The position numbers and the translations under genes are program-made. A stretch of 64,000 nucleotides of DNA from Micromonospora terminaliae (GTDB lineage: Bacteria; Actinomycetota; Actinomycetes; Mycobacteriales; Micromonosporaceae): positions 5,846,001 through 5,910,000 of the forward strand of contig NZ_CP045309.1 of assembly GCF_009671205.1 (NCBI RefSeq), written 5' to 3'. Below the pieces are notes generated by a model. That model searched no databases. It had not been told where the DNA came from and saw nothing but the letters and a program-made list of their open reading frames with translations. Positions 1 through 16,731 of the stretch are shown piece after piece; the stretch's first letter is position 1; each line of letters starts with the position of its first letter.

Positions 1-780
1 GCCCAGGTACGCGGCGTCGCCGGCACCTGGCGCGACCTCACGGACAACGTGAACTCGATGGCGTCGAACCTGACCGCTCAGGTGCGGAACATCGCCCAGG
101 TGTCGACGGCGGTGGCCAAGGGTGACCTGTCGCAGAAGATCACGGTGGACGCGCAGGGCGAGATCCTGGAGCTGAAGTCGACGGTCAACACGATGGTGGA
201 CCAGCTGTCGTCGTTCGCCGACGAGGTGACGCGGGTGGCCCGCGAGGTGGGCACCGAGGGCAAGCTGGGCGGTCAGGCGCAGGTGAAGGGTGTCTCCGGC
301 ACCTGGCGGGACCTGACCGACAACGTGAACTCGATGGCGTCGAACCTGACCAGCCAGGTGCGGAACATCGCCTCGGTCACCACGGCCGTCGCCAAGGGCG
401 ACCTGGGCCAGAAGATCACGGTGGACGCGCAGGGCGAGATCCTGGAGCTGAAGAACACCGTCAACACCATGGTCGACCAGCTCTCCTCGTTCGCCGACGA
501 GGTCACCCGGGTGGCCCGCGAGGTCGGTATCGAGGGCAAGCTGGGCGGCCAGGCCCAGGTGAAGGGGGTCAGCGGCACCTGGCGCGACCTCACCGAGAAC
601 GTCAACCAGCTCGCCTCGACCCTGACCACCCAGCTCCGGGCGATCTCCCAGGTCTCCACGTCGGTGACCCGGGGTGACCTGACCCAGCGGATCAGCGTGA
701 AGGCGCAGGGCGAGGTCGCCGAGCTGAAGGACAACATCAACCAGATGATCGTCACCCTCCGGGAGACGACCAAGAAGAAC
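1..780 (+). repeat. 276-bp tandem coding repeat (HAMP modules)
   Basis: The codons for GTWRD start at bases 22, 298 and 574, an exact 276-bp spacing. The first two visible units are nearly identical in DNA as well as protein; the third diverges, mainly in its second half. The array continues leftwards out of the window. Confidence 0.9.
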
Positions 781-12956: not shown

Positions 12957-12988
12957 GACCGCCGGGAGCCGCGTGGCTCCCGGCGGTC
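12957..12988. terminator. Strong hairpin after ccsB
   Basis: GACCGCCGGGAGCC, loop GCGT, GGCTCCCGGCGGTC: a perfect 14-bp stem. It lies between ccsB (+) and the convergent gene ending at 13001 (-), so it probably ends both transcripts. No T-run. Confidence 0.85.
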
Positions 12989-13000
12989 GCGGTTTCCGGG

Positions 13001-14368
13001 TCAGCTCAGGGTCACCGGTGCGGCGTCGTTGGCCGGGTGGTCATCCACCCGGGGGAAGTTGTCCGCGCGACGGACCTCGCCGGGCGCACCGAGCGGGCCG
13101 TCAACTCGCAGGTCGAAGTCGAGGAGCCAGGTCTCGCCCGCTGGGAAGACCCCACCGGGCCTGGTGCAGTACCAGCCGCTCGGCACCGACTCCTCGGTGG
13201 CCTCCTCGTCGCCCCCGATCGGCCAGCAGGCCGACGGGGACCTGGTCACCGCCGTGCCGGCTGGCGGCGTGAAGACGAGCCGCGCCGCGCTGTCACCGGA
13301 GACCGTGCCGTCCGGCACGCCGGGGCCGTCGTTGCGCAGGCCGACCTGGACCTGGACGCTGTCGCCGGGTACACCGGTGGCCGCCGCCCCCAGGGCGACG
13401 ACGTCGTACGCCCCGTGGATCGCCCGCAGGAAGTACTGGCCGGACGGAGACTGGTGCTCGGGGCCGATCACGTCCACCGGGTCGCCGACCTGGCGCAGCC
13501 GCAGCGGCTGGTCGGCCTGCCGCTTGCCGAACGTCACGCCGGTGGGCAGTGGCCCCGCCGTGGCGGTGGGCGCCACGCTCTGCATGATCCGCTTGTCGCC
13601 GATCGCCTCCGGCCCGACCGTGGTGGCGAACCCGCCCGGCACCTCGTAGCGGCGGCCGGGGGCGAGCTGGTCGGTGACGGTGCAGACGACGATGGTGCTC
13701 AGTTGGTCGCCGGCGCCGTACCGACAGTTCCGGTAGGCGGCGGGTTCCAGCCCTACCGGGAAGCGCAGGGTGATGCGCAGGCCGTCCACGGCCTGGTCGC
13801 CGGAGCTCACCAACGCCACCGGCATGGCCAGCCGGTCGCCGGTGCCGGCGTTGTCGACGTACCGGTCGACCAGGTCGATCGCGTCCGGTCCGGCGTGCAC
13901 CGTCACCGTCGCCTGCTGTGCCCAGCCGTCGAGGCCGTCGGCCAGGGTGGTGTAGCCGATGGCGCCGCTGGCTCCGTCGGCGGCTCCCGGGGCGGCACGG
14001 AGCACGATCGGCATCGTTCCGTTGACCGTGCCCCACTCGTCCGTGGTGGCGTCCGGGGGCATCGGGCAGGTGACCGAGTCGGCGTCGCTGACGCACCAGT
14101 CCGGGAAGGTGGCGGTGGCGACGCCGGCCAGGCCGGACAGGTCGAACGTGGTCCGCGGGTGGAGGGCGTCGGTGCTGCTGCTGATGGAGAGGGCGGCGGT
14201 GCGGGCGGGTGCGCCGGCCGTGCCGACGACGGTGTCGCCGAGCCAGCCGCTCACCCAGCCAGGGCCGGTGTCGGCCGACGCAGGGGTGGGCAGGGCGGTG
14301 ACCGCGCCCAGGGTGGCCATCGCGACGGCGCCGGCCTGGATCGCGCGAGAAGCGCGCAGTGGTCTCAT
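13001..14368 (-). CDS. Secreted beta-rich protein, function unknown
   Basis: 455 residues. Signal peptide with cleavage near ASA-D (about residue 32), then a Gly/Thr/Val-rich extracellular protein. Segments such as VQVQVGLRNDGPGVPDGT resemble DUF11/CARDB-like sandwich domains, seen also in the LPXTG protein at 59752. Four to six cysteines could form disulfides. There is no C-terminal anchor or membrane segment, so it is released or held non-covalently. The start has GAGGAG six bases upstream. Confidence 0.8.
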   Translation of the reverse strand: MRPLRASRAIQAGAVAMATLGAVTALPTPASADTGPGWVSGWLGDTVVGTAGAPARTAALSISSSTDALHPRTTFDLSGLAGVATATFPDWCVSDADSVTCPMPPDATTDEWGTVNGTMPIVLRAAPGAADGASGAIGYTTLADGLDGWAQQATVTVHAGPDAIDLVDRYVDNAGTGDRLAMPVALVSSGDQAVDGLRITLRFPVGLEPAAYRNCRYGAGDQLSTIVVCTVTDQLAPGRRYEVPGGFATTVGPEAIGDKRIMQSVAPTATAGPLPTGVTFGKRQADQPLRLRQVGDPVDVIGPEHQSPSGQYFLRAIHGAYDVVALGAAATGVPGDSVQVQVGLRNDGPGVPDGTVSGDSAARLVFTPPAGTAVTRSPSACWPIGGDEEATEESVPSGWYCTRPGGVFPAGETWLLDFDLRVDGPLGAPGEVRRADNFPRVDDHPANDAAPVTLS

Positions 14369-14459: not shown

Positions 14460-14651
14460 CTACGGTCTTCGCCGGCCCAGCAGGTCGACGACCCGGAGGG
14501 TCACCTGGTACGCCACCTCCGGCAGGTCGGCCAGGTCGAGGCGGTCGGCCCGCAACGCGAACTGAGCGTGCAGCTCGCGGGCCACCGCGTCCCGGATCTC
14601 GGCCTGCAAGGGGCTGAGCCCGTCCGGATCACCCACCACGTACGCGTCCAT
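14460..14651 (-). CDS. Small conserved-looking protein, function unknown
   Basis: 63 residues beginning MDAYVVGDPDGLSPLQAEIRD. It is mostly helical and acidic with a basic C-terminus (LLGRRRP). Codon usage has the GC-rich third positions of neighbouring genes. No domain recognised. It lies between the secreted protein gene and the ATPase operator, reading away from the latter. Confidence 0.6.
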   Translation of the reverse strand: MDAYVVGDPDGLSPLQAEIRDAVARELHAQFALRADRLDLADLPEVAYQVTLRVVDLLGRRRP

Positions 14652-14698
14652 TCGCTCATCGTGGCAGAACGGCGCGGCACTGAGCGGGACCGCAAAAT

Positions 14699-14731
14699 GT
14701 AGGACTACACTTCTAAGAAATGTAGTTCTAC
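14699..14731. promoter_or_regulatory. 33-bp near-perfect palindrome before ATPase gene
   Basis: Sixteen-base arms around a single central A. Fourteen of sixteen pairs are Watson-Crick, one is G:T and one is C:A. The outer parts are themselves palindromes: GTAG-GA-CTAC (14699-14708) and GTAG-TT-CTAC (14722-14731), with centres 23 bp apart; the middle is TTCTAAGAA. It is an AT-rich island in GC-rich DNA, 16 bases before the GTG of the ATPase. Best read as an operator for a dimer or pair of dimers. Confidence 0.7.
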
Positions 14732-14747
14732 GAGATGCGGTGGCGAT

Positions 14748-16229
14748 GTGGCGCTTCCGGTAAAGCCGACGGAGATCTTCGATCGGGACGTCGAGTGGGG
14801 CGAACTGGCCCGGTTCGTCGCAGATGAACGGCCCGGTGCCACCCTCGGCGTGGTCAGCGGACGCTGGCGTCAAGGCAAGACGCTGTTGCTGTACGAGCTG
14901 GCGCGGGTCAGCGGCGGCTTCTACTTCGGCGCCACCGAGGCGACGGAGACCGAGTCGCTCCGCCGCCTGGGGGGCGCGCTGGGCGCGCACACGGGCGCTC
15001 CCGGTCCGGTCCACCTCGCCGACTGGGGTGCCGCCATCGACGCCCTGCTCGCACTGGGGCGGGACCGCCCGGTGACTGTCGTTCTGGACGAGTTTCCGTA
15101 CCTCGTGCGCGCTGCAAGGGACCTGCCCTCGATCATCCAGCACGCGCTGACCCCAGGGCGCCCGGAGCGCACGGAGTCCCGCACGCGGCTGCTGCTGTGC
15201 GGGTCGGCGCTCTCCTTCATGGGTGGCCTGCTCGCCGGATCGGCGCCGCTGCGCGGGCGCGCCGGGTTGGAACTGCCGGTACAGCCTCTGGACTATCGGG
15301 CCGCCGCCGCCTTCTGGCAGATCGAGGATCCCCGGCTGGCGGTCCGGGTCTTCGCCATCGTCGGCGGCACCCCCGCGTACCGCCGGGAGTACGTCCAGGA
15401 CGACGCGCCCGCCGGCCCGGACGACTTCGACGACTGGGTCGTGCGGGCGGTGCTGAATCCAGCCCGTCCGCTGTTCCGCGAGGCTCGCTATCTGCTGGCC
15501 GAGGATCCAGACCTCCGGGACACCGCGCTGTATCACTCCGTCCTCGCCGCCGTCGCCGAGGGCAACGCCAGCCGCGGTGGCATCGCGGGCTACATCGGGC
15601 GGAAGGCCAACGATCTGCAGCACCCGCTGACCGTGCTGGAGGACGCTGGCCTGTTGCTGCGGGAACCTGATCCGCTCCGGAGCGGCCGCAGCAGCTACCG
15701 GATCACCGAACCGCTGATCACCTTCTACCAGGCGATCATGCGACCGGCCTGGACGGCGCTCGAGCAGCGCCGGGGCGCGGATGTCTGGCGCCGGTCCCAG
15801 CGCCGGTACGCCAGCGCTGTCCTCGGGCCCCGCTTCGAGGAGATCGTCCGGCAGTGGGCCGTGCGCTTCGCCGATCCCGACACTCTCAGTGGGCTCGTCG
15901 CGGAGGCGAGCGCTGCCACGCTCACCGACCCGGCAAGCCGGACCAGCCACGAACTCGACCTGGTCGCCCTCGGCGAACCACCGCTGGGGGACGGGCCGCG
16001 CCCGTTGCTCGCGATCGGTGAGGTCAAGTGGGGAAGGCAGCTGGGGAGGGCGGATCTGGAGCGGTTGGAGCGGATCAGGGAGCTGCTCGTCCGGCGGCCG
16101 GGATTCGACACGACTGACACCAGGTTGCTGCTGGCGAGCGGCCAGGGCTTCACCGAGGGGCTCGGCGAGACGGCATCGGCCCGGGCGGATGTGGTCCTGC
16201 TGGATCCCTCCCGCCTCTACGGCGACTGA
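14748..16229 (+). CDS. AAA ATPase with winged helix and DUF234-like PD-(D/E)XK domain
   Basis: 493 residues. Walker A is SGRWRQGKT (Lys 44); Walker B is TVVLDEFPYL (Asp 114, Glu 115). A winged-helix region is at about 262-320 (NASRGGIAGYIGRKANDLQHPL). The C-terminal domain (about 355-470) shows the nuclease-like pair HELDLVAL (Asp 404) and IGEVKWG (Glu 425, Lys 427). This matches the archaeal-type ATPase/DUF234 family, whose roles are mostly unknown. It stands alone between unrelated genes behind a 33-bp palindrome, which suggests a laterally acquired, tightly controlled unit (inference). GTG start; an out-of-frame ATG lies two bases before it. Confidence 0.88.
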   Translation: MALPVKPTEIFDRDVEWGELARFVADERPGATLGVVSGRWRQGKTLLLYELARVSGGFYFGATEATETESLRRLGGALGAHTGAPGPVHLADWGAAIDALLALGRDRPVTVVLDEFPYLVRAARDLPSIIQHALTPGRPERTESRTRLLLCGSALSFMGGLLAGSAPLRGRAGLELPVQPLDYRAAAAFWQIEDPRLAVRVFAIVGGTPAYRREYVQDDAPAGPDDFDDWVVRAVLNPARPLFREARYLLAEDPDLRDTALYHSVLAAVAEGNASRGGIAGYIGRKANDLQHPLTVLEDAGLLLREPDPLRSGRSSYRITEPLITFYQAIMRPAWTALEQRRGADVWRRSQRRYASAVLGPRFEEIVRQWAVRFADPDTLSGLVAEASAATLTDPASRTSHELDLVALGEPPLGDGPRPLLAIGEVKWGRQLGRADLERLERIRELLVRRPGFDTTDTRLLLASGQGFTEGLGETASARADVVLLDPSRLYGD

Positions 16230-16235
16230 GGCAAT

Positions 16236-16706
16236 TCACCCGCCGAACCAGCCGGGGACGTCGAGGCGGAAGACGTCGGACGGGACCATCCGGCGCAGGT
16301 CGTCCTCGATGGCCGCGACCCGGCCCGCGCCCAGGGTCGCCGCCCAGCGGTCGCGCAGTTCGTCGAAGACGACCACCGAGCGGCGCAGCCCGTCGTGGCC
16401 CTTCGCCGTCATCCGGACCAGCTTGCGCCGGGCGTCGGCGGGGTCGTCGGCGCGTTCCAGGTAGCCGAGCGCGACCAGCCGGTCCACCGTCTTGCCGGCC
16501 GCCTGCTTCGAGACGCCCAGGCGCTGGCCCAGGTCGGAGGCGGTGGTGCCGGCGTTGCCGACGGCCTGGAGCACGAAGCCGTGTGCCGGCCGCAGCTCGG
16601 GGTGCCCCTGCCGGGCCAGTTCGGCGTGCAGGTCGTCGATGAGCGTGCGGAAGCCGGCGAGCAGGAGCAGTGGGAGCACGAAGCCCGGGCGGTCAGGCGT
16701 TGCCAT
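16236..16706 (-). CDS. MarR-family transcriptional regulator
   Basis: 156 residues from the ATG (MATPDRPGF); a TTG three codons upstream is less likely because GGGGTT is spaced for the ATG. The winged helix is at about 50-110 with TASDLGQRLGVSKQAAGKTV and the wing DDPADARRKLVRMT. Divergent from the AhpD-like gene at 16771, with a palindrome between them. Probably represses that gene in response to oxidant or a phenolic ligand (inference). Confidence 0.92.
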   Translation of the reverse strand: MATPDRPGFVLPLLLLAGFRTLIDDLHAELARQGHPELRPAHGFVLQAVGNAGTTASDLGQRLGVSKQAAGKTVDRLVALGYLERADDPADARRKLVRMTAKGHDGLRRSVVVFDELRDRWAATLGAGRVAAIEDDLRRMVPSDVFRLDVPGWFGG

Positions 16707-16731
16707 GTTCGACAACCCCGTTTACTATTTC

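Follow-up and report, generated by a model that had tools for sequence, protein, structure and literature searches.

The closest described relatives of the protein studied here are the ATPase_2-DUF234 proteins (Pfam PF01637 plus PF03008), or PDC-S27, in which ATPase, winged helix and PD-(D/E)XK domain follow one another as they do in this protein. Archaeal Orc1/Cdc6 proteins bind repeated origin sites, often near their own gene, while in autoregulated operators and iteron-Rep systems the repeated site of a DNA-binding protein precedes that protein's own gene and diverges together with it. In the accessible parts of the papers that name PDC-S27 (PMC12988326 among them), it is an unvalidated candidate, on the origin of which these papers disagree; PMC12988326 counts 3503 in Archaea and 4562 in Bacteria. 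As a whole word, DUF234 was found in the accessible literature in a single paper, on Campylobacter hypothetical proteins. The accessible parts of the open-licence full-text literature, including PMC12988326, PMC13356809, PMC5760070, PMC4599002 and PMC8195603, hold no account of a palindrome or array before these genes.

The window, which is the whole stretch of 64,000 nucleotides of Micromonospora terminaliae DNA that was analysed, contains a gene akin to these at a housekeeping-type locus of the chromosome. The order is ResB, CcsB, a 455-aa protein, a 63-aa gene, the solitary ATPase gene, a MarR-family protein (16236-16715, adjoining the ATPase gene), a CMD-family protein, an alpha/beta hydrolase, UbiD and UbiA, where the names ResB, CcsB, UbiD and UbiA are those we take the neighbours to have. 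No known defence gene was seen among the named neighbours (PADLOC was run on the ATPase and the 63-aa protein). The features of the locus are the following:

14460-14651, minus strand: divergent 63-aa gene, a neighbour only, outside the unit of palindrome and gene; in 62 of 101 genomes of the genus, with and without the ATPase gene and on either side of it.
14690-14740, no strand: extended imperfect palindrome, with 25-base arms around A14715 and CCGCA...TGCGG at its ends (approximate limits); 19 of 25 arm pairs, the outer stem being included when either strand is folded.
14699-14731, no strand: core 33-bp palindrome, with 14 of 16 arm pairs; model R1 (described below) matches 14693-14737 on both strands, with E 9.7e-7 and 6.5e-6.
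14701-14714, no strand: unit 1 of the 15-bp array, AGGACTACACTTCT, in the register given by 95 aligned sites and the distant homologues.
14706-14711, plus strand: TACACT inside the left arm, read from the sequence as a possible -10 element; the matching columns are conserved among the aligned sites.
14716-14729, no strand: unit 2 of the 15-bp array, AGAAATGTAGTTCT, behind the spacer A14715, in the same register.
14748-16229, plus strand: gene for the 493-aa ATPase-winged helix-PD-(D/E)XK protein, with a GTG start.
15552-15656, plus strand: helix-turn-helix of the winged helix, codons 269-303, with helices 276-283 and 287-299 (DSSP of the predicted model); the block that co-varies best with the site.
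15768-16226, plus strand: PD-(D/E)XK-type domain, codons 341-493, with D404 at 15957-15959, E425 at 16020-16022 and K427 at 16026-16028.

Several neighbours have peculiarities of their own. The 63-aa gene, usually found right behind ccsB, has no Pfam, PADLOC or NCBIfam match. To the eye, the 455-aa protein (13001-14368, minus strand) starts like a signal peptide; it matches no Pfam family at E<=0.001, and only some of the relatives have it at this locus. A GC-rich palindrome just behind ccsB (12957-12988, 15 of 16 arm pairs) may be the terminator of two convergent genes, between which it lies. Several Micromonospora genomes have a further inverted repeat near the locus, around CTTGGACAGTT...AACTGTCCAAG (in L080, where it stands between MarR and the 63-aa gene, in L104 and in L210); it is perhaps a small repeat element.

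The 33-bp palindrome that the earlier note had described, with 16-base arms around a central A, is present but imperfect, the mismatches being at +/-5 and +/-12 from A14715. As described there, it is AT-rich in GC-rich DNA (36% G+C against 72.9% for the window), ends 16 bases before the gene and contains the small palindromes GTAGGACTAC and GTAGTTCTAC, 23 bp apart. By pair score, lag 23 comes first in the window site (14.0) and lag 15 second (13.5). The 23-bp pair was nevertheless set aside as a meaningful unit, because the distant relatives show 15 bp, although lag 23 scores slightly higher here. Judged by sequence comparison, the repeating unit of the family is the 14-mer at 15 bp and not the 23-bp pair; the window has two such 14-bp inverted repeats before the gene, and in relatives they are clearer. 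A good candidate for a -35 element before the ATPase gene was not seen by eye. Other palindromes with arms of similar quality occur elsewhere in the window, all of them GC-rich by eye, so a single copy is weak evidence and the case rests on conservation.

The encoded protein has the order SSO1545/Orc1-like ATPase, winged helix and PD-(D/E)XK domain. Its ATPase plus winged-helix part is predicted to have the Orc1/Cdc6 fold, resembling SSO1545 and DNA-bound Orc1/Cdc6. The carboxy-terminal part, predicted separately (pLDDT 94), finds PD-(D/E)XK enzymes as its best structural matches, with no E below 1e-3 for this part from Foldseek alone. D404, E425 and K427 are invariant in a 10-protein alignment (A1); in a 50-protein alignment (A3), D404 and E425 are invariant and K427 is nearly so, giving the predicted PD-(D/E)XK fold a conserved acidic pair and lysine. 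The nuclease domain proposed in the earlier note is supported by the prediction, and the other fold that the note would have counted against it was not what the prediction gave. PF03008 gives no match to the protein at E<=1. PF01637 scores 17.2 bits against a gathering score of 33.2, and a close relative (L130) is likewise below this cut-off with 27.8 bits. Among eight relatives tested, PF03008 is above its cut-off in seven and both profiles are in six. The PDC-S27 profiles PDLC04984 and PDLC04985 match the protein with E 2.9e-11 and 1.8e-10, no curated cut-off being given for them; in a genome search with PDLC04984 at E<=1e-8, its own genome was not among the matches. Since neither PF01637 nor PF03008 recognises it, the protein is at most a divergent branch near ATPase_2-DUF234 / PDC-S27.

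A protein match is present in 30 of 151 related genomes, and in 24 of these the homologue is full-length and at least 51% identical. The palindrome precedes the gene in all 24, including the homologues with 61%, 59% and 51% identity, so the search across genomes that had been proposed as a check finds the site conserved before its gene. The palindrome upstream of a nearly full-length 33% homologue (in G124, locus L028) is unrelated. The 95 sites on which model R1 was trained include those of the 24 carriers; its hits there are by construction and its value lies in absence elsewhere, while the stricter filters used for the 151 genomes lose weak matches. It matches 31 of the 151: the 24 carriers, two genomes with broken genes (G064 and G078), four without a protein match, and one weakly, on another contig (G121). 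In the genome of the window, R1 has no match at E<=10 other than this place, which it hits on both strands; the 6.7 Mb contain TGTAGNNCTAC three times, and the halves of the window site account for two of these. One arm resembles GAAC-N4-GTTC, and LexA-like boxes were considered and dropped because R1 has no further match in the genome. The proposal that the site is a substrate for the nuclease is left unsupported by the same restriction to one locus. Phage records searched with the site gave no match.

The association extends to other actinobacteria, where a palindrome score of at least 9 is reached before the gene in 35 of 72 loci, against 8 of 122 control genes from the same loci. A motif finder run over 104 loci returned at least 12 of 16 pairs in 69, but it always returns a best window and is therefore no test; eight of these loci (L121-L128) were later set aside because they repeat or nearly match Micromonospora loci already included. 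Solo sites, with 17-20 of 22 pairs, are located at the same locus without the ATPase gene in four genomes (L213 in G002, L226 in G032, L214 in G049 and L210 in G058). Such near-perfect copies may reflect recent gene loss, or a site with a use of its own.

In 12 Micromonospora regions the unit of palindrome and gene is flanked by the 63-aa gene on one side and by MarR, or the place of MarR, on the other; in 11 it directly follows ccsB, two of the latter with a broken gene, and once it lies further from ccsB (L107). One genome (G020) has only a 3' remnant behind ccsB, in another (G071) the remnant is on another contig, and in G077 the gene and ccsB are on different contigs. As judged by eye, little besides the unit distinguishes empty relatives (L077 and L079) from occupied ones (L087, L089 and L090). 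Palindrome and gene might thus be a minimal mobile unit, with the site as the end or target for the ATPase-nuclease. This would agree with the presence or absence of the unit as a block at two places near ccsB, with the left border at the palindrome and the right border just past the stop codon (by eye), with the remnant or copy elsewhere in G071 and G077, and with the solo sites and the several gene copies of some genomes. However, neither a second site at the other end nor a target duplication was seen by eye, the domain profile searches reported no recombinase or transposase domain in the protein, and ATPase distances follow those of CcsB (r = 0.80, n = 21). UbiD, being very conserved (r = 0.27, n = 19), was abandoned as a yardstick of descent. 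We consider a mobile element quite unlikely; the mostly block-wise presence or absence of the unit and its two neighbouring places speak weakly for the mobile role suggested in the earlier note. We interpret the unit as a long-standing resident that has often been lost and has moved locally once.

Distant genes of the ATPase_2-DUF234 type, from bacteria and archaea, have unrelated upstream sequences, often with palindromic 14-mers every 15 bp. Of the 32 lags tested (9-40), 15 is the best in 41 of 83 distant genes; among shuffles it is so in 8 of 195, and among neighbouring genes taken as controls in 7 of 122. By set, the counts are 12 of 26, 8 of 12, 10 of 14 and, in a hold-out fetched after the rule was noted, 11 of 31; against the 122 control genes, which are flanks of L129-L200 and not from the hold-out genomes, the hold-out gives a Fisher p of 5e-5. 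The 26 are those scored among 30 loci from the PDLC04984 genome search (L247, L252, L254 and L260 were left out), and three of the loci scored for lags (L249, L253 and L258) are absent from the protein alignment. The 12 and 14 plasmid loci were picked for variety among the matches listed (20 of 140 and 60 of 157 records) and are not fully independent, with sites shared by L262 and L273 and by L274 and L275. In the hold-out, 31 of 32 stretches were scored, L317 being dropped for its unclear start, and several genomes overlap with the first set (G413, G298, G190 and G374, for example). Averaged over 52 sequences, only lags 15 (+3.39) and 30 (+1.25) stand out, with values of at most 0.78 elsewhere. 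The other 42 of the 83 genes have a different best lag; an array is visible by eye in one of these (L261), and in others none was seen. The window's own subfamily has less perfect units, and lag 15 is the best there in 30 of 73 sequences. Arrays, where found, lie mostly within about 100 bp of the start codon, with two units in the window and three or more in some relatives, and in several distant relatives they are direct-repeat arrays instead of one long palindrome. Clear examples are:

L234, actinobacterium: CAAATCGCGATTTG A CAAATCGCGATTTG.
L269, Rhodothermus: ATACTCCAGAGTAT A ATACTCTCGAGTAT.
L283, M. jannaschii plasmid: ATAATTTCAATTAT C ATAATTATAATTAT.
L276, Natronococcus: GAAATCTGGATTTC C GAAATCTAGATTTC; additional, weaker units are visible by eye.

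On Rhodothermus marinus plasmid pRMAR01, the gene (L269, 2998-4422) follows csm5 of a type III-A CRISPR system at a distance of about 1.4 kb. The gene on Natronococcus occultus plasmid 2 (L276, 1501-2886) has a longer 15-bp array and is located between two orc1/cdc6 family genes.

The reader of the site was sought by co-variation in 124 proteins, comparing half-site differences with protein-block differences after removal of overall protein distance; of the distant sites only the 28 with best lag 15 and a score of at least 13.5 were used, which favours clear sites. The best 35-residue block starts at residue 270 (r 0.364), and the best block that does not overlap it reaches 0.269. Block 269-303 has r 0.359, rank 5 of 459 overlapping blocks, where site shuffles within protein clusters give 0.192 +/- 0.024; five other blocks are within 3 sd of their own shuffles. 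The best 11-residue windows are 277-287, 269-279, 285-295 and 271-281, and the best co-varying stretches correspond to both helices of the helix-turn-helix. When the 28 distant proteins are taken by themselves, window 255-265 ranks first and 283-293 third. Co-variation of single residues is noisy (four of the top 20 are in 269-303), too noisy for contact residues to be named. In G298, G190, G100 and G145, the sites of paralogues differ within the genome; in G374, two of three paralogues have clear and different palindromes, and both of those in G413 share nearly the same site. No neighbour family is found in more than 6 of 72 loci. Co-variation of the helix-turn-helix, different sites of paralogues and the lack of a shared neighbour family together point to the protein itself as the reader, and the earlier suggestion of an operator bound by the protein's own winged helix agrees with the pattern of sequences.

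Operators of trans-acting regulators are common, and a separate regulator encoded elsewhere, such as the MarR-family protein of the adjoining gene, might bind the site and control the gene. This is made improbable by the absence of any widespread neighbour family and by the way in which the site differs among paralogues in a single genome and varies along with the helix-turn-helix of the protein itself; moreover, empty loci that have no palindrome also contain the MarR gene. Neither MarR nor the 63-aa gene is a fixed partner, as both are found with and without the ATPase gene.

The arms of the palindrome change together: 79.6% of cells are paired, against 64.6% in shuffles and 32-45% when slid, and double changes occupy 399 cells against 175.5 in shuffles. 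Compensatory changes of this kind would also maintain the stem of an RNA (or extruded DNA) hairpin that controls translation from the leader. The plus strand folds strongly (z -6.8) and G.T mismatches outnumber A.C mismatches by 127 to 70, both of which would suit a hairpin. However, the minus strand folds equally well (z -7.1), and the G.T excess is found in Streptomyces (62:19) and Micromonospora (21:7) but not in Nocardia (10:13); a strand-specific RNA hairpin was rejected on these two grounds. Double changes affect 20 of 21 pairs, which is unexceptional, as 53 of 500 shuffles reach 20. The direct-repeat arrays of several distant relatives do not form a long palindrome, and a hairpin would not be expected to co-vary with a helix-turn-helix. 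A hairpin is quite unlikely; like the nuclease-substrate reading, it is less supported than a private operator. That the array might be an iteron set for an Orc1-like initiator, the relic of a replicon, is suggested by the predicted Orc1/Cdc6 fold, the direct-repeat arrays and the L276 copy between two orc1/cdc6 genes, but has a near-negligible chance given a solitary chromosomal gene at a housekeeping locus, conserved nuclease residues and two short units near a start codon, which fit an operator better.

The palindrome is rather likely to be a private operator that is read by the protein encoded behind it and probably mediates autorepression. In the model that we infer for binding, subunit number, repression, nuclease activity and trigger, the unit would be a 14-bp inverted repeat that recurs every 15 bp, two units together making the long palindrome. 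If the protein's own winged helix reads this unit, two or more ATPase modules would line up side by side on the array. As the array is only a short distance ahead of the start codon, where it covers the leader or promoter, the bound protein would most likely repress its own gene and keep an ATP-controlled putative nuclease scarce. Phage or DNA damage are guesses for the signal that would release it. Control by its own product would explain how genes of this kind can be solitary, with no antitoxin or immunity partner, and suggests a putative defence family held in check in this way; the protein is a candidate for a defence role through its match to PADLOC's unvalidated PDC-S27. A private site of fixed geometry could also serve as a handle: as a DNA ligand for structures, as a reporter for the inducing signal and as a code that links residues 269-303 to the site.

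A bolder idea, which we hold to be unlikely, is that the array is a parking and sensing platform, on which the SSO1545/Orc1-like ATPase-nuclease is held inactive. If the array were stripped by phage takeover, by DNA damage or by altered ATP, the nuclease would be freed and its gene immediately switched on, as a one-gene, one-site alarm of bacteria and archaea. If true, such a platform would be the DNA-bound counterpart of the STAND/NLR immune ATPases.

When the locus is compared with the known systems, the ATPase_2-DUF234 / PDC-S27 proteins are closest, about half of the distant relatives carrying the 15-bp array; the window protein differs from them in its Pfam scores, as described. For these proteins a self-read site, if true, offers a direct handle on what they bind and do. 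Unlike the window protein, SSO1545 (2fna) and PABY2304 (2qen) have no nuclease domain in their chains, which are 352 and 350 residues long. Archaeal Orc1/Cdc6 proteins share the predicted ATPase plus winged-helix fold, to which the window protein adds a nuclease domain, and there is no sign of an origin at the locus. With autoregulated operators and iteron-Rep systems the locus shares a repeated site that precedes the gene of its presumed binder and diverges with it, whereas here the binder would be a candidate ATP-driven nuclease and the period is fixed at 15 bp. By analogy, the locus may work as autoregulated operators or iteron systems do, the binding protein here being an Orc1-like ATPase.
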